NCBI GenBank assembly: GCA_019639135.1
Contig: JAHBSL010000011.1
Span: 62,001 to 126,000 of the forward strand
Direction of reading: 5' to 3'
Source of the DNA: Acidobacteriota bacterium
Lineage (GTDB): Bacteria; Acidobacteriota; Blastocatellia; Pyrinomonadales; Pyrinomonadaceae
DNA: 64,000 nt
The position numbers and the translations under genes are program-made. The notes under the pieces are model-generated. The model searched no databases, was not told the DNA's origin, and was given only the letters and a program-made list of their open reading frames with translations. Shown here one piece after another: positions 43,822 through 52,797 of this stretch (the stretch's first letter is position 1; the number at the start of each line of letters is the position of its first letter).

Positions 43822-44973
43822 ATGCAAAACGCAGAAACGATCATCATCGGCGGCGGCGTTGTTGGGGCGAGTGTGGCTTATCATCTTGCCGAACGCGGGG
43901 CGAGGGATGTGCTGATCCTCGAACGGGAGGCGGAGCAGGGCCGCGGTTCTACGGGGGCGGCGACCGGCGGCGTTCGGGCGCAGTTCGAGACCGAGATCAA
44001 CATTCAGATGTCGGTTTACTCGATCGATTTTTTCGAGGACTGGGATCACGACTGCGGATATGAACCTCGGGGCTATCTCTTCTTCGCCACCGAACCCGAG
44101 CATTTCGAGTATCTCAAGCGAAATGTCGAGCTTCAGCGTCAGCTCGGCGTCAAAGGCGTCGAGACCGTCGTGCCGGAAGCGATCCGCGAGATGATCCCGG
44201 GAATGAACTGCGCCGATATCCTCGGCGGGAGCTTCGGCCGGCAGGATGGCTTCATCGATCCGCTCGCCGTTATGCAAGGCTTTACCGAGCGTGCTCTTGC
44301 CTGCGGAGCGAGGCTCGAAACGGGAAAGCGCGTTCTCAGAATTCTCACTAAGGACGGTCGAGTTTCCGGTGTTGAAACCGAAACAGGCCGGATCGATTGT
44401 GACCGGGTCGTCATCTGCACCGGAGCCTGGGCCGCCGAGCTTGCCGCCACGGCCGGCATCTCGCTCCCGGTCGAGCCGCTCCGCCGGCAGATCGTCTGGG
44501 CTCGTTCGCCCGAGCCTCTTCCTCCCGGCCTTCCGATGGTCATCGACCTCGGAACCGGATTTCACTTCCGCCCTGCAAAGAACTCCCGGCACGAACTTAT
44601 GTTCGCCTATCCCGACCCCAACGAGCGGCCATCCTTCAGCCGCGAACTCGACGATGCGTTCGTCGAGAAGATCCGCGAGCGTGCCCGCCATCGTGCTCCG
44701 TGGCTTTATGAGACCGAGGTCGTCCGCGAGAAATGCCGCGTCGGGCTTTATGAGAACACACCCGACCATCACGCAATTCTCGGCGGCTGCGAGGTCGAAG
44801 GCCTCTATTTCGCCAATGGCTTTTCGGGCCATGGCGTAATGCACTCGCCCGCAACCGGTCGTGCCCTTGCCGAGATCATTCTCGACGGGCAAGCGAGCTT
44901 TCTCGACGTCTCAATGCTCTCGCTCGACCGCTTCGCCCGCGGCGAACTGCTCCACGAAACGGCCTTCATCTAG
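43822..44973 (+). CDS. FAD-dependent amino-acid/sarcosine-type oxidoreductase (DAO family)
   Basis: 383 residues from the ATG at 43822. A Rossmann FAD motif TIIIGGGVVGASVAYHLAERGA is at the N-terminus, with GRGSTGAATGGVRAQFETEIN nearby, the mid-domain GRIDCDRVVICTGAWAAELA and the C-terminal GLYFANGFSGHGVMHSPATGRALAE. This is the D-amino-acid oxidase/sarcosine oxidase beta-subunit fold. Substrate is unknown (glycine, sarcosine, proline-like). It starts 77 bp from the divergent mpl gene. Confidence 0.9.
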   Translation: MQNAETIIIGGGVVGASVAYHLAERGARDVLILEREAEQGRGSTGAATGGVRAQFETEINIQMSVYSIDFFEDWDHDCGYEPRGYLFFATEPEHFEYLKRNVELQRQLGVKGVETVVPEAIREMIPGMNCADILGGSFGRQDGFIDPLAVMQGFTERALACGARLETGKRVLRILTKDGRVSGVETETGRIDCDRVVICTGAWAAELAATAGISLPVEPLRRQIVWARSPEPLPPGLPMVIDLGTGFHFRPAKNSRHELMFAYPDPNERPSFSRELDDAFVEKIRERARHRAPWLYETEVVREKCRVGLYENTPDHHAILGGCEVEGLYFANGFSGHGVMHSPATGRALAEIILDGQASFLDVSMLSLDRFARGELLHETAFI

Positions 44974-44984
44974 AAGGTGGAAAA

Positions 44985-45088
44985 GTTTAAAAGTTTAAAA
45001 GTGAAAATGTGGGAAAGTTTAAATGTGAAAATGTGGGAAAGTTTAAATGTGAAAATGTGGGAAAGTTTAAATGTGAAAAAGTTTAAAT
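44985..45088. repeat. AT-rich octamer array, 13 units
   Basis: Thirteen uninterrupted 8-nt words: GTTTAAAA twice, then GTGAAAAT-GTGGGAAA-GTTTAAAT three times (a 24-bp higher unit), then GTGAAAAA-GTTTAAAT. It begins 11 bp after the FAD oxidoreductase stop. Confidence 0.9.
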
Positions 45089-45126
45089 GATTGATAGCAA
45101 CGCAATGATCGGCAGCGTCCGACTTC

Positions 45127-45259
45127 TCCGCGTCCCCGCGTCTCCTCTTCCCCGCGTCCCCGCGTCCCCCTTCCCCGCGTCTCCTCTTCCCCGCGTCCCC
45201 CTCCCCGCGTCTCCTCTTCTCCCCTTCTCCTCTTCTCCCCTTCTCCCCTTCTCCGCCCC
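45127..45259. repeat. CT-rich octamer array
   Basis: About 16 mostly contiguous 8-nt words, TCCGCGTC/CCCGCGTC alternating with TCCTCTTC and, toward the right, TCCCCTTC, with two short phase slips. It ends 19 bp before the histone-deacetylase-family gene and leaves little room for a normal promoter. Together with the AT-rich array it fills almost the whole 44974-45278 gap. Confidence 0.85.
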
Positions 45260-45278
45260 GCTGCGGTAAAGTATCCCT

Positions 45279-47540: not shown

Positions 47541-47593
47541 TTGACACTGCGGGGAAAAGAAATTATTCTTACTGCAACTGAAAATCATTTTCA
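47541..47593 (+). promoter_or_regulatory. Promoter with Fur-type box ahead of the TonB receptor gene
   Basis: TTGACA (47541-47546), 17-bp spacer, TATTCT (47564-47569). Then TGAAAATCATTTTCA (47579-47593), a perfect 7-1-7 inverted repeat closely matching the Fur consensus half-site TGATAAT. The box covers the expected transcription start and sits 14 bp before the ATG, a position suited to repression. GGAG (47598-47601) follows. Confidence 0.75.
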
Positions 47594-47606
47594 TTAAGGA
47601 GTAGCC

Positions 47607-50087
47607 ATGAATTTCTTATCAAGTCTTCCAACCAGGCCCTATCTGAACCGACGCAATTTTACCGCCCGTTTAATGACCGCTCTTTTCATCCTTGTTTCAT
47701 TGGCCGCTGTCGCTTTCAGCCAAACCTCATCTATAGATGGTTCGATTCGTGTTGTTGACCCGAACGGCTCGCCGGTCGCCGGTGCCGCTGTGTTTGCCAC
47801 TAACACCGCTGGAAACACTCGAACAAACTCCCTCACGGATGCCGACGGCCGCTTCTTTTTCTCCGGAATTAGCGGCGAAGCGATCATTGTCGTTTCCGCC
47901 GAAGGCTTTGCCCGCACCGAGAGGCGCGTTGACCTCCCGGCGGAAGCGGGCATCGAGATCACTCTCTATCCGCAGCCGGTCGCTGCCGAAGTTATGGTCG
48001 CTTCGTCGTATCTCGCCGGAACCGCCGCGAGCCTCGATGAAGTTCCGGGAGCGGTGGAACGGCTCGACCGCCAGACGCTCGGGTCCGCCCGCGTTTTCGA
48101 TTTCTCCGAGGCTTTAAGAAAGATCTCGGGCATCAACGTCCGCGATGAAGAGGGCTTCGGGCTCCGGCCGAACATCGGCATCCGCGGCACGAACCCGACC
48201 CGCTCGACCAAGGTGCTCTTACTCGAGGACGGCCTGCCGCTCGCCTATGCTCCCTACGGCGACAACTCTTCCTACTATCATCCGCCGATCGAGCGTTACG
48301 CCGAGGTAGAGGTGCTAAAGGGTTCAAGCCAGATCGTTTACGGCCCGCAGACCATCGCCGGCGTGATCAACTACATCACTCCGAACCCGACCGAAAAGCC
48401 GAGCTTCGGCATCAAATTAATGGGCGGCAACCGCAATTATTTCAACGGGAGCGTCTTCGGCAGCGGGACGATCAAGAGCACCGGCATTTTCGCCAATTAC
48501 GCCCGCAGGCAGGGCGACGGGGCACGCGAGAACATCAATTCCAAGCTCGACGATACGTCGGTCAAGATCGTCCAGACGCTTAATAGCCGTAATGCTCTGA
48601 CATTCAAATTCAGCCACTATGGCGAGGATTCGAACATCACCTACTCGGGCCTGACCGAAGCGGAATACGCAGCCAACCCGCGGCAGAATCCTTTCCGCAA
48701 CGACTTTTTCTACGGCGATCGATTCGGTACTTCGCTTTCGCACTCGGCCGTTCTCTCGCCGGCGGTTACGCTTACAACGAACGCCTATTACAACTTCTTC
48801 CGACGGCATTGGTGGCGGCAGTCCTCGAATTCCGGCCAGCGGCCAAACCGGCTGAACGTTGACCCGGATTGCCTCTCGATGGCCGACCTCAACACCACCT
48901 GCGGCAATGAAGGGCGTCTCCGCAAATACGACACCTACGGCATTGCCCCGCAGCTTGCTTATCAGTACAGTGCGGGTGCACGCTTCCGCGGCGAACTTCA
49001 GATCGGCGGAAGGCTCCATTGGGAAGAGCAGAACCGCCGCCAGCTCAACGGCGACACGCCGACGAGCCGTGACGGCATTCCGGTCGAGATAAACATCCGC
49101 CGCAACTTCGCGTCGTCCGCCTTCGTCCAGAACCGGTTCGTCTTCGGCAAGTTTTCCGTAACTCCGGGCGTCCGGTTCGAACGGATCGAGATCGAGCGGC
49201 GCAACCTGCTGACGAATCCGATCTCCGAAGGCCGGACCACGGTCACCGAGGCAATTCCCGGAATCGGTTTTGCCTATTCGGGCCTGCCGCGGACCACCGT
49301 CTTCGCCGGTGTTCATCGCGGATTTTCGCCCCCGCGAGCGGAGGACATAGTAAGCAATTCGGGCGGCGTTCTCGAACTCGACCCCGAAAGAAGCTGGAAC
49401 TACGAGGCCGGAATACGTGCCAACCCGATCCGCGGGCTTCGGTTTGAGGGCACGTTCTTCCGGCTCGATTACGAAAACCAGATCGTTCCGGCGAGCATTG
49501 CCGGCGGCATCGGTGCCGCATTGACCAACGGCGGCGAGACGCTCCAGCAGGGTCTGGAATTCAGCGGCCGGCTCGACACCGATGCGTTCTTCGCCTCGCT
49601 CCACAACGTCTTTATCCGCACCGCTTTCACCTGGCTGCCGACGGCCGAGTTTCGCGGCACTCGGCTCAGCTCGATAACGAACACCGGCATCTTGAATTCG
49701 TTTTGCCCGCCATCGCGGCGGCTCGGCTCGACGCAGTGCTCGATCACCGGTAACCGGCTTCCCTATACGCCTGAGACGACCGCAACGACCAGCCTCGGAT
49801 ACTCGCACGCTAAAGGCTTTCAGGCATTCATCGAGAATGTTTACGTCAGCGACCAGTTTGGTGATGACCTGAATGCATTCGCCCCGACGGCAAATGGCCA
49901 GATCGGCCCTATAGGCGCTCAAACCTTTTGGAACGCGACCGCTAACTATAAGGTCGAGCGTTGGAAGACGACATTTTTCGTAACGGCGAAGAACCTTGGC
50001 GACAAAACGCTGATCGTTGACCGCACACGCGGCATTCTGCCATCAAGCCCTCGGCTCGTTCAGGCTGGTATCAACATCAACTTTTAA
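47607..50087 (+). CDS. TonB-dependent receptor with N-terminal regulatory-like domain
   Basis: 826 residues. Signal sequence (LMTALFILVSLAAVAFS), then a CarboxypepD-regulatory-like domain (about 47-125, IDGSIRVVDPNGSPVAGAAVFA). The plug domain (about 140-260) shows GAVERLDRQTLGSARVFDFSEALRKISGINVRDEEGFGLRPNIGIRGTNPTRSTK... and VEVLKGSSQIVYGPQTIAGVINY. A 22-strand-type barrel ends in a terminal aromatic strand (VQAGININF). It resembles FecA/iron-siderophore receptors in the plug (RGTNPTRS...LLEDGLPLAYAPYGDNSSYYHP). The Fur-type box upstream supports ferric substrate uptake. Outer membrane; heads a cluster with an ABC importer. Confidence 0.93.
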   Translation: MNFLSSLPTRPYLNRRNFTARLMTALFILVSLAAVAFSQTSSIDGSIRVVDPNGSPVAGAAVFATNTAGNTRTNSLTDADGRFFFSGISGEAIIVVSAEGFARTERRVDLPAEAGIEITLYPQPVAAEVMVASSYLAGTAASLDEVPGAVERLDRQTLGSARVFDFSEALRKISGINVRDEEGFGLRPNIGIRGTNPTRSTKVLLLEDGLPLAYAPYGDNSSYYHPPIERYAEVEVLKGSSQIVYGPQTIAGVINYITPNPTEKPSFGIKLMGGNRNYFNGSVFGSGTIKSTGIFANYARRQGDGARENINSKLDDTSVKIVQTLNSRNALTFKFSHYGEDSNITYSGLTEAEYAANPRQNPFRNDFFYGDRFGTSLSHSAVLSPAVTLTTNAYYNFFRRHWWRQSSNSGQRPNRLNVDPDCLSMADLNTTCGNEGRLRKYDTYGIAPQLAYQYSAGARFRGELQIGGRLHWEEQNRRQLNGDTPTSRDGIPVEINIRRNFASSAFVQNRFVFGKFSVTPGVRFERIEIERRNLLTNPISEGRTTVTEAIPGIGFAYSGLPRTTVFAGVHRGFSPPRAEDIVSNSGGVLELDPERSWNYEAGIRANPIRGLRFEGTFFRLDYENQIVPASIAGGIGAALTNGGETLQQGLEFSGRLDTDAFFASLHNVFIRTAFTWLPTAEFRGTRLSSITNTGILNSFCPPSRRLGSTQCSITGNRLPYTPETTATTSLGYSHAKGFQAFIENVYVSDQFGDDLNAFAPTANGQIGPIGAQTFWNATANYKVERWKTTFFVTAKNLGDKTLIVDRTRGILPSSPRLVQAGININF

Positions 50088-50096
50088 GGAGGAACG

Positions 50097-50345
50097 GTGC
50101 TTTATATGAATGACAGCGGACGAACGCGCCTTGAGATCTGGAATTGCCGCGGCTGCGGCGTCGTGCACATCGCGGCCGGCAATGTCCGGCTTGACCTGAA
50201 CCGCGAGGAATTCGAAGCCTTTGCGGAAGCTGTGGTCGGCATCTACTGCGGCCAACTTGCGACCGAGGCAGTCCCTCTCGAACGCTCAAACGACGGCAGA
50301 ATGGATATTTTCCGCGGTGCCCTGACGAGCAGCGAGGTGCATTAG
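50097..50345 (+). CDS. Small CxxC protein linked to TonB receptor (82 aa)
   Basis: 82 residues. AAGGAGG (50086-50092) overlaps the preceding stop codon; start is GTG 50097 or ATG 50106. Contains WNCRGCGVVHIAAGNVRLDLNREEFEAFAEAVVGIYCG: a CxxC plus a later Cys and His that could bind one metal or a haem-like ligand. No signal peptide, so cytoplasmic. Function not recognised; its place between receptor and importer suggests a role in metal handling or regulation. Confidence 0.75.
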   Translation: MLYMNDSGRTRLEIWNCRGCGVVHIAAGNVRLDLNREEFEAFAEAVVGIYCGQLATEAVPLERSNDGRMDIFRGALTSSEVH

Positions 50346-50392
50346 CCGCGATGGAAATCGCCTTTCCCTAAATGATAGAGTTTAGAAAAATT

Positions 50393-51298
50393 ATGTATAG
50401 AAACATCCTGCTATTTTTTGCGGCGGCGACTGTGGCCGCTGTTTCGATCGGATGCGGAGGAACGACACAGTCGCCCTCGAACACGGCAAACGGCAACTCC
50501 GTCTCCGGGCAAAAGCTCGTCGTTGCGCTCAAGCCGGACAAAAACCCGGACCAGATGATCGCCGAACGCGATGCCGCCGCGAAGTTCCTTTCGGAAAAGC
50601 TCGGCCGTCCGGTCGAGGTCATCATTCCGCTTTCGGCCGCCGTCATTAACGAGGGCTTCTCTAACGGCACCATCGATCTCGGCTACCTGAGCGGCACCGA
50701 CCTGATCAACGCCAAGGACGCCGAGCTTCTCCTCGTCGGCGAGATCAACGGCAAAACGACCTACAAGAGCTACTGGCTTTCGCTGAAGGAAAAACCCTAT
50801 TCGAGCGTTAACGACCTCAAGGGTAAGCCGATCGCCTTCGCCAGCCGGACGAGCACCTCGGGCTATGTGATGCCGCTTTGGGACCTTCGCCAGAAAGGGC
50901 TTATCTCCGAAAAGGCCGATCCTGAAGAGTTCTTTGGTGCGGGCAATGTCTTTTTCGGAACGGGCTACGTCTCTGCGGTGGAACGCGTCCTCAGCGGCGA
51001 GGCCGAGGCAGCGGCGGTCAGTTATTACGTCCTTGATGAGAACAAGCACCTCACCGACGAGCAGCGGTCGAAGCTAAAGAAAGTGGCCGAACAGGGCGAC
51101 GTTCCGACTCACATCATCTCCATTCGCAAGAGCCTTACCGGCCCGGAACGCGACAAGCTCAAGGCCGCCTTGCTCGCCATGAACGAAGGTGCAAACACCG
51201 AGCTTCGCGACAAGCTATTCACGTCAAAGCTGGTCGAGGCCGAGCAGGAAGCTCACCTCAAGCCGCTCCGCGACGCTCTCGCAATGCTTCCGAAATAG
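50393..51298 (+). CDS. PhnD-type ABC substrate-binding lipoprotein
   Basis: About 301 residues from the ATG at 50393; an in-frame ATG at 50372 adds seven residues. Lipobox VSIGC followed by a Ser/Asn/Gly linker, so a lipid-anchored periplasmic protein. The body matches the phosphate/phosphite/phosphonate-binding PhnD fold: LVVALKPDKNPDQMIAERDAAAKFLSEKLGRPVEV, GTIDLGYLSGTDLINA, KGKPIAFASRTSTSGYVMPLWDLR and VSAVERVLSGEAEAAAVSYYVLDE. Ligand unknown: PhnD-like proteins can bind other oxyanions or metal chelates. Followed directly by its ATPase and permease genes. Confidence 0.9.
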   Translation: MYRNILLFFAAATVAAVSIGCGGTTQSPSNTANGNSVSGQKLVVALKPDKNPDQMIAERDAAAKFLSEKLGRPVEVIIPLSAAVINEGFSNGTIDLGYLSGTDLINAKDAELLLVGEINGKTTYKSYWLSLKEKPYSSVNDLKGKPIAFASRTSTSGYVMPLWDLRQKGLISEKADPEEFFGAGNVFFGTGYVSAVERVLSGEAEAAAVSYYVLDENKHLTDEQRSKLKKVAEQGDVPTHIISIRKSLTGPERDKLKAALLAMNEGANTELRDKLFTSKLVEAEQEAHLKPLRDALAMLPK

Positions 51299-51997
51299 AT
51301 GGCGGAAACCGCTCCGAATAAAAACCGAACGGCCGTCCGGGTAGAGGGATTGACCCTTGACCGCGACGGCAGAAGGCTATTTTCCGATATGTCCTGGTCG
51401 CTCGCGGCGGGCGAATTTCTCGCCGTCACCGGGCCTTCGGGTGTCGGTAAATCGAGCCTCGTTTCGGCACTTGCCGGAATGCTCGAACCAACCGCCGGAA
51501 CTATCGAGCGGCCTGCCGCAGCAGCTTCCGCCGGCATGGTCTTCCAGGACCTTAGGCTAACAAAAGAGCTAAGCGTCTTGACCAATGTGCTTTGCGGGCG
51601 GCTTGGCCGGTTCCCGTGGTGGCGGACGCTTTTCGGGTTTCCTGCCGAGGAAAAACGGGCGGCATTTGCCAAGCTTGAAGAGCTTGAGATCGGCCACCTC
51701 TGCCACAAACCCGTCCGCAACATCTCCGGCGGCGAGCAGCAGCGGACGGCCATCGCCCGCGTGCTCTTTCAGGGACCGGATGTCATCTTTGCCGATGAGC
51801 CGACCTCAAACCTCGACCTCGCACTCTCCGAACGCGTGATGGCAATGCTCCGCCGCGAGTGCGGGTCCGCGGGCCGCTCAGCCATCTGCATTTTGCACGA
51901 TACGGAATTCGTCGGCCGTTTTGCCGACCTCGAGCTTCGGCTCGGGCGCGATCTTCCCAACGGGTGGGAATTGAGGAGGATCGCGGAAGCGGAATGA
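51299..51997 (+). CDS. PhnC-type ABC transporter ATP-binding protein
   Basis: 232 residues beginning immediately after the stop of the binding-protein gene (TAG-ATG). Walker A GPSGVGKSSL, Q-loop VFQDLRL, signature ISGGEQQRTAIAR, Walker B VIFADEPTSNLD and the H-loop ILHDTEF are all present. Closest in layout to PhnC (RLGRFPWWRTLFGFPAEEKRAAFAKLEELEIGHL). Its TGA overlaps the permease ATG (ATGA), so the three genes are one operon. Confidence 0.93.
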   Translation: MAETAPNKNRTAVRVEGLTLDRDGRRLFSDMSWSLAAGEFLAVTGPSGVGKSSLVSALAGMLEPTAGTIERPAAAASAGMVFQDLRLTKELSVLTNVLCGRLGRFPWWRTLFGFPAEEKRAAFAKLEELEIGHLCHKPVRNISGGEQQRTAIARVLFQGPDVIFADEPTSNLDLALSERVMAMLRRECGSAGRSAICILHDTEFVGRFADLELRLGRDLPNGWELRRIAEAE

Positions 51998-52797
51998 CCG
52001 GCGCACCTCCAAAACTCTCGTGGCGTGAACGCTTTACGGCGTTTCGGGCGACGCTGCTGCTCTTTGCCGTCGCTGTGATCATCTCGCTGCCGGCACTCCG
52101 CGGTTCGGGCCGCGACCTTGGCTATCTTGAGAACCTTCGCCGCTTTGCCTCGCAGTTCTTCCCGCCCGATCTGTCGGTAACGCCGCAGGTCATTGCAGCC
52201 CTTGGCGAGACCATTCAGATCGCCGTGATGGCGACCGTTATCGCTGTACTTATTGCACTGCCGCTTGCCGCCGCGGGCTCGCAGACGGTCGCCCCAAAGT
52301 GGCTCAATATCGGCACGCGAATGGTGCTCAATGTTATCCGCACGCTGCCCTCGCTCATCTGGGCACTCGTCGCGGTCGCGGTGGTCGGGCCAAATCCGCT
52401 CGCCGGCGTCATCGGCCTGACGTTTTACAGCATCGGATATCTCGGCAAGTTCTTTAGTGACGCCTTCGAATCGGTCGATACCTCGGTGACCAATGGGCTC
52501 CGGTCGCTCGGAGCTAATCCGGTGCAGGCGTTCCAATACGGAATGCTCCCGCAGCTCAAGCCGCTCGTGATGAGCCACGCCCTATGGATGCTTGAATACA
52601 ACATCCGCTCGGCCGCAATCATCGGCTACGTCGGGGCAGGCGGCATCGGGCTCCTGCTCCATACCTATCAGGAATTCGGGCAGTGGGATCGCTTTGCGAC
52701 CGTTCTGCTTTTTATCCTCATCCTCGTTACAACGCTCGATTTTTTCGGTGAGTGGCTCCGCGGAAAGATCGTCCGCACGGATCAAAAGATCACCTGA
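51994..52797 (+). CDS. PhnE-type ABC transporter permease
   Basis: 267 residues from the ATG overlapping the ATPase stop. Several membrane helices (ATLLLFAVAVIISLPAL, IAVMATVIAVLIALPLAAAGS, LIWALVAVAVVGPNPLAGVIGLTFY, FATVLLFILILVTTLDFFG). The EAA loop reads VTNGLRSLGANPVQAFQYGMLPQ, and MLEYNIRSAAIIGYVGAGGIGLLL is typical of PhnE. Completes the importer. Confidence 0.93.
   Translation: MTGAPPKLSWRERFTAFRATLLLFAVAVIISLPALRGSGRDLGYLENLRRFASQFFPPDLSVTPQVIAALGETIQIAVMATVIAVLIALPLAAAGSQTVAPKWLNIGTRMVLNVIRTLPSLIWALVAVAVVGPNPLAGVIGLTFYSIGYLGKFFSDAFESVDTSVTNGLRSLGANPVQAFQYGMLPQLKPLVMSHALWMLEYNIRSAAIIGYVGAGGIGLLLHTYQEFGQWDRFATVLLFILILVTTLDFFGEWLRGKIVRTDQKIT

Follow-up and report, generated by a model that had tools for sequence, protein, structure and literature searches.

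What does a phosphonate-type (PhnDCE) importer carry when its genes stand in one run behind a Fur-type box and a TonB-dependent receptor? Such a locus lies in the window, the 64,000-nucleotide stretch of acidobacterial DNA analyzed here, which comes from a genome that is 98% complete and 4.09 Mb in size. The sequence-only reading offered two options: either the importer carries an iron chelate, or the uptake of phosphonate or phosphate is linked to that of iron. An iron role of the locus now seems very likely, and the operon is quite probably a Fur-repressed iron importer whose PhnD-type protein would bind Fe3+ through Y131, Y199, H247, an acidic side chain and an anion.

The run of genes and its Fur-type box

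The box, TGAAAATCATTTTCA, is at 47579-47593 on the forward strand. It is a perfect 7-1-7 palindrome, ends 13 bases upstream of the receptor ATG at 47607, and is the sole match with at most two mismatches within the window. It stands shortly after the -10-like hexamer of a promoter-like TTGACA-17-TATTCT on the same strand (47541-47569), and pairs of that kind are not enriched over shuffles (2 seen, shuffle mean 1.9). The genes after the box are all on the forward strand. The TonB-dependent receptor (47607-50087) has CarboxypepD_reg and Plug domains (Plug 6.6e-18) and is followed by an 82-aa CxxC protein (50097-50345, with a GTG start or alternatively an ATG at 50106). The importer consists of a PhnD-type binding protein (50372-51298; PF12974 at 2.2e-44, with an additional in-frame ATG at 50393), a PhnC-type ABC ATPase (51299-51997) and a PhnE-type permease (51994-52797) that matches TIGR01097 with 248.5 bits, above the cut-off of 216.7. 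The perfect 15-base palindrome ahead of a receptor, a CxxC protein and PhnDCE genes, as first described from the letters alone, was thus borne out by locating the box, the reading frames and the domain matches.

The gaps along the run are 9, 26 and 0 bases, followed by a 4-base overlap between the PhnC-type and PhnE-type genes, and this tight spacing makes it likely that the receptor, CxxC and PhnDCE genes are co-transcribed. An MFS gene follows after a gap of 93 bases and an enoyl-CoA hydratase gene lies upstream; both were excluded from the unit because they frame the spot in relatives of the same genus regardless of what stands between them. Elsewhere in the window, the stretch between two genes at 44970-45270 consists of low-complexity repeats that read KRRRGEG and FTFKLSHI on the minus strand.

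The best PDB match of the receptor is FecA, the ferric citrate receptor, at 6.8e-28 and covering residues 122-682, and this match is far stronger than those to PhuR or BtuB. The receptor beta-barrel model passes in three relatives (L062, L063 and L065) and is unlisted for the window receptor itself.

The whole genome has 35 sites that match the box with at most two mismatches, against 9 for a reversed control pattern, and the majority of the 35 fall within genes. Intergenic boxes precede the window receptor, its paralogue (57% identical), a heme oxygenase and FeoB. Others precede a few genes that have no recognized part in iron biology: an M50 peptidase, a glucose/sorbosone dehydrogenase, an AMIN-like/alanyl-tRNA synthetase pair, an FMO-like protein and one protein that Pfam does not match. 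Three Fur-family proteins were found in this genome. A one-mismatch box stands ahead of a 549-aa protein for which Pfam gives no match (L036, 5356-5370; G000 C10). Separately, TGTAGATTATTTTCA has four identical copies, on G000 C1, C13, C39 and C40, of which three lie within 365-aa ORFs; the copies are probably a repeated mobile gene.

The locus in related genomes

Relatives give the box more weight. The 22 related loci (317 kb) hold 20 boxes with at most two mismatches, where mononucleotide shuffles predict 0.6, and a box at this threshold stands at the operon head in all 16 related loci that carry a homologue of the CxxC protein. The half-sites vary among these boxes (TGAAAATGACTTTCA, TGAAAATCGTTTTCA and others).

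The CxxC protein has the conserved pattern W-x-C-x-x-C...V-H...EF..F. The window protein has no Pfam match, and two of its relatives (L029 and L030) resemble DUF6686 (PF20391) with E-values of 5.5e-4 and 2.4e-3 and scores of 20.4 and 18.3 bits, under the cut-off of 23.9. A literature search for "DUF6686" returned no match. The predicted structure has low confidence (pLDDT 63.6). The gene is sparse: surveys gave a match in 12 of 60 relatives and, across the phylum, in 13 of 347 genomes, and no relative was found on plasmids.

The contents of the locus change from relative to relative. At the same chromosomal spot in the same genus, receptor-CxxC-PhnDCE (L024, L025) is found in some genomes, CxxC-PhnDCE in another (L026) and the CxxC gene alone in a further one (L027). 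Other genomes have heme oxygenase with receptor and CxxC at this spot (L028, L029 and L034, with PepSY_TM added in the last two), heme oxygenase-CxxC (L030), or CxxC-PepSY_TM with the receptor present or absent (L031, L032, L033). In other genera, the CxxC gene is accompanied by two receptors and a heme oxygenase (L066), by PepSY_TM (L068), or by a Peripla_BP_2 importer (L067, L069, L070). The locus is an exchangeable cassette, with the importer slot filled elsewhere by a Peripla_BP_2 importer, PepSY_TM or heme oxygenase. Because the modules exchanged are those of iron and heme, PhnDCE most likely serves in iron import, as the inner-membrane arm, and not in phosphorus scavenging. The sequence-only reading had proposed a survey of whether the 82-aa gene always sits with this receptor, and it does not: a receptor adjoins it in 12 of 17 loci, the window counted, and one locus with both receptor and importer (L056) has no CxxC match. 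The CxxC gene is nonetheless found in a box-led locus every time, even where no receptor is adjacent.

A scan of named genomes found 11 further loci of the window's PhnD clade, of which 9 are from Acidobacteriota and the other 2 from Verrucomicrobia, which makes 12 with the window; duplicate views of the same genomes (L055/L024, L056/L147, L057/L026 and L059/L025) were counted once. A receptor lies within 1.5 kb of the importer in 7 of the 12 (the window, L055, L056, L059, L062, L063 and L065), and none stands beside it in 4 (L057, L058, L061 and L064). The remaining locus, L060, has a 45-aa C-terminal receptor remnant directly before PhnD (1135-1269), possibly the result of receptor loss or of misassembly. 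The remnant stands behind two small genes that resemble a toxin-antitoxin pair.

No box with at most two mismatches was found in L056, L058, L062 or L063, and none was found in L064. The sequences of L056 and L062 begin within the receptor gene, with the promoter region outside them, and L063 has a 3-mismatch box immediately ahead of its receptor. An exact box lies directly ahead of the lone PhnDCE of L061, and a box precedes the CxxC-PhnDCE of L057 (the same genome as L026). Separation of receptor and importer in relatives had been named as something that would speak against a joint system. It was found in part: 4 of 12 loci have no adjacent receptor, yet two of these four, L057 and L061, are box-led. 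With boxes before all 16 CxxC loci, the heme oxygenase, feoB and a lone PhnDCE, the proposed iron control of the operon gains strong support from comparison, as does an iron cargo, and the box is a credible iron signal to which Fur would bind.

One of the Verrucomicrobia, L065, has ExbB-ExbD divergent from receptor-PhnD-PhnC-PhnE. Between the divergent units are two copies, one of them mismatched, of a different palindrome, TGAGACNNNGTCTCA. Its genome contains 4 such sites against 1 for the control; two are at the locus and one is ahead of FeoB. A palindrome shared with feoB is independent support for an iron role, from another phylum and another operator sequence. In Verrucomicrobium G378, a palindrome TGAGATCGCGTCTCA lies ahead of feoB (L144) and is possibly the Fur box of that genome.

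The binding pocket and its likeness to transferrin

The pocket was read by alignment to PtxB, with the pocket residues given in the available text of PMC5700983 as reference. In all 12 clade members the STS motif (161-163), the hinge Y131 and the lobe-1 D56 are kept, the His of STS-H is replaced by Tyr (Y199), and the capping Tyr is replaced by His (H247). The position of PtxB Tyr49 is Ala or Gly.

The Tyr/His pair is not confined to the window clade. Five Roseobacter-group plasmids (L102, L104-L107), the nearest plasmid homologues examined, share it, with SES in place of STS. All five carry a di-haem peroxidase-PhnD-PhnC-PhnE operon with a divergent MntR-annotated gene for a repressor of the Fe/Mn type, and the one such protein tested, that of L102, has iron-dependent-repressor domains. 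The acidobacterial sequences of this sister branch number 3 with SES and 3 with SSS, and a CCP_MauG gene lies upstream in 5 of the 6, the sixth having too little sequence. For L133, the sequence present upstream is only 515 bases long and does not show the neighbor. L118, L119 and L120 have the SSS motif, an Asp at the STS-H position and the cap His, and stand directly behind CCP_MauG genes. Altogether, 18 of 23 cap-His loci adjoin a di-haem peroxidase or a receptor, with the L060 remnant counted as one, and in the same scan 0 of 12 STS-H control loci do. None of these controls has a receptor within 1.5 kb, and two of them have less than 600 bases on one side. From the control set of 30 loci, 13 without a PhnD ORF by BLAST were dropped before residues were counted, and 17 were retained. 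A 37-sequence tree supports the window clade at 100/100 and places the cap-His groups together on one side of an 88/82 branch, with a long-branch warning.

The structure of the PhnD-type protein was predicted with a pLDDT of 81.6. Among the structural matches listed are ArrX, AioX, PtxB, PhnD and HtxB at Z 20.5-24.7 and transferrin lobes at Z 19.8-20.7 (246-254 residues, rmsd 3.1-3.8), these Z-scores being a re-comparison of matches from Foldseek's own ranking. Alignment with hhalign to the lobes of chicken ovotransferrin places Y131 opposite the iron ligand Y92 and the start of the STSG helix opposite the anion-site GRSAG. The second half aligns only around VPTH/VAAH and weakly, with H247 on H250 (probability 12.9%, E 0.0022; canonical control 0.07%, E 0.67). 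Y199 was matched to Y191 by motif and spacing only (GY, with the following strand ending 17 residues later) and was not aligned by the program. The position of the transferrin Asp ligand, aligned by eye, is S107, which is not acidic; D56, D60 and D110 are invariant and could stand in for it. Transferrin binds iron through Asp, Tyr, Tyr and His, and the Tyr, Tyr and His beside the oxyanion site appear to correspond to three of these four ligands. This match suggests that the PhnD-type protein binds Fe3+ directly with a synergistic anion.

A transferrin signal specific to the clade was considered and rejected. Profiles against insect transferrin/melanotransferrin gave 3.5e-4 for the window clade, 5.7e-8 for all cap-His PhnDs and 3.6e-6 for the SES/SSS set, and a control profile of canonical STS-H proteins matches equally well or better (2.7e-8). 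The PF00405 Transferrin model matched no PhnD in 24 genomes or records, nor any among 18 proteins. Since canonical PhnDs match transferrins equally, PF00405 is silent and the Asp is not conserved in place, the kinship of fold between PhnD and transferrin is a general one, and the feature particular to the clade is the Tyr/His swap only, within what appear to be iron-regulon loci. A tentative extension, about which we are more doubtful than confident, is that this PhnD branch became a bacterial transferrin-like Fe3+ carrier through the exchange of His for Tyr and Tyr for His. It would hold Fe3+ and a synergistic anion at the former phosphonate site and pass iron from TonB receptors into a PhnCE channel, with the SES/SSS sister branch as a second metal carrier. 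If so, PhnD-type proteins would show a route from an oxyanion binder to a transferrin site.

Cargo, mechanism and known systems

In the mechanism that we propose, Fur would leave the box when iron is low, and one transcript would be made. A ferric chelate, at a best guess a citrate-like one, would cross the outer membrane through the FecA-like receptor. In the periplasm, the PhnD-type protein would receive the iron or the chelate, and PhnC and PhnE would move the cargo through the inner membrane. In other systems the equivalent inner-membrane job is done by FecBCDE, HmuTUV and FbpABC. The CxxC protein may be a small helper that accompanies Fur-led receptor loci. Within the binding protein, the ligands of Fe3+ would be Y131, Y199, H247 and the side chain of an acidic residue, and the STS site would hold a synergistic anion, in the manner of transferrin and FbpA.

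The cargo could instead be an intact ferric chelate, such as ferric citrate or a siderophore bearing carboxylate or phosphate, with the STS motif gripping an oxyanion of the chelator and no direct bonds between protein and iron. The STS motif, invariant in 12 of 12, fits this account, as does the room that may be created where Tyr49 of PtxB becomes Ala or Gly, and so does a receptor closest to FecA. It leaves unexplained the invariant His-to-Tyr and Tyr-to-His changes, which are also common to the SES branch with no receptor nearby. We regard this account of the pocket as a serious possibility, if a somewhat doubtful one, and consider ferric chelate and bare Fe3+ similarly likely as what is carried. 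A Fur-regulated cargo of heme, or of a different TonB substrate such as cobalamin, is unlikely. Heme oxygenase, other receptors and Peripla_BP_2 importers do fill the same type of cassette in relatives, but the window receptor is much closer to FecA than to PhuR or BtuB, and the cassettes that bear PhnDCE (L024-L026) have no heme oxygenase inside, with one elsewhere in the window genome (L097).

The linked uptake of iron and phosphorus, in which phosphonate or phosphate would be imported under low iron, for instance in iron-bound form, draws on membership in the PhnDCE family and on a published model for acidophiles. The available text of PMC2631029 proposes a "metalophosphate/phosphonate uptake module" in which Fur-linked iron receptors cluster with phosphate/phosphonate genes. 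The PhnD-type protein, the one PF12974 protein found in the window genome, scores 115.8 on TIGR01098, over 112.05, and 75.9 on the PhnD equivalog TIGR03431, under 261.1; the PhnC-type protein scores 149.4 on TIGR02315, under 266.1. A search for PhnJ alone of the C-P lyase found it in none of 13 clade genomes, which are 12 distinct ones because G019 and L056 are the same MAG, and the E. coli control was positive. The loss of the STS-H His and the change of the cap residue in 12 of 12 also count against this link, as does the exchange of the CxxC-linked cassette with heme and iron modules. On the strength of the missing PhnJ and the two replaced residues, an iron cargo, one of the two options offered at the outset, is favored, and the phosphorus-iron link seems very improbable. 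An anion cargo is possible because the oxyanion STS site is intact; phosphonate itself is unlikely.

On sight, PhnDCE systems are labeled phosphonate transporters and tallied as phosphorus genes. Two pocket residues identify the iron-regulon PhnD branch, which occurs in two phyla, and make it possible to correct such labels. A small uncharacterized CxxC family is now tied to Fur-led receptor loci. If Fe3+ is bound directly, a family known for oxyanions would include a bacterial import protein whose site is transferrin-like, and the origin of the transferrin iron site would become approachable by mutagenesis.

Among titles and abstract openings, no paper was found that describes PhnDCE under Fur control together with a TonB receptor, or a transferrin-like PhnD. 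The acidophile clusters of PMC2631029 contain phosphatases, C-P lyase genes and an MFS transporter, and the text available describes no PhnDCE with an altered pocket. With the PhnDCE/PtxABC importers (PF12974, TIGR01097), the window system has in common the binding-protein fold, the PhnC-type ATPase, PhnE, the STS motif and the hinge Tyr; it differs in having Tyr for the STS-H His, His for the cap Tyr, a Fur-led TonB receptor and no PhnJ in the genome. With FecABCDE, HmuRTUV and other pairings of a TonB receptor and an iron importer, it shares the Fur box, the FecA-like receptor, the binding protein and the ABC importer in one run, whereas its inner-membrane arm is of PhnDCE type and theirs is a Peripla_BP_2 protein with a FecCD-type permease. 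FbpABC and transferrin-type proteins share the two-lobed fold and Tyr/Tyr/His beside an oxyanion site; compared with transferrin, the window PhnD has the Asp ligand replaced and lies outside PF00405, and its binding of Fe3+ is a prediction. The general plan of the locus, a receptor operon led by Fur, is ordinary; its inner-membrane arm is unusual, and its mechanism may be important.
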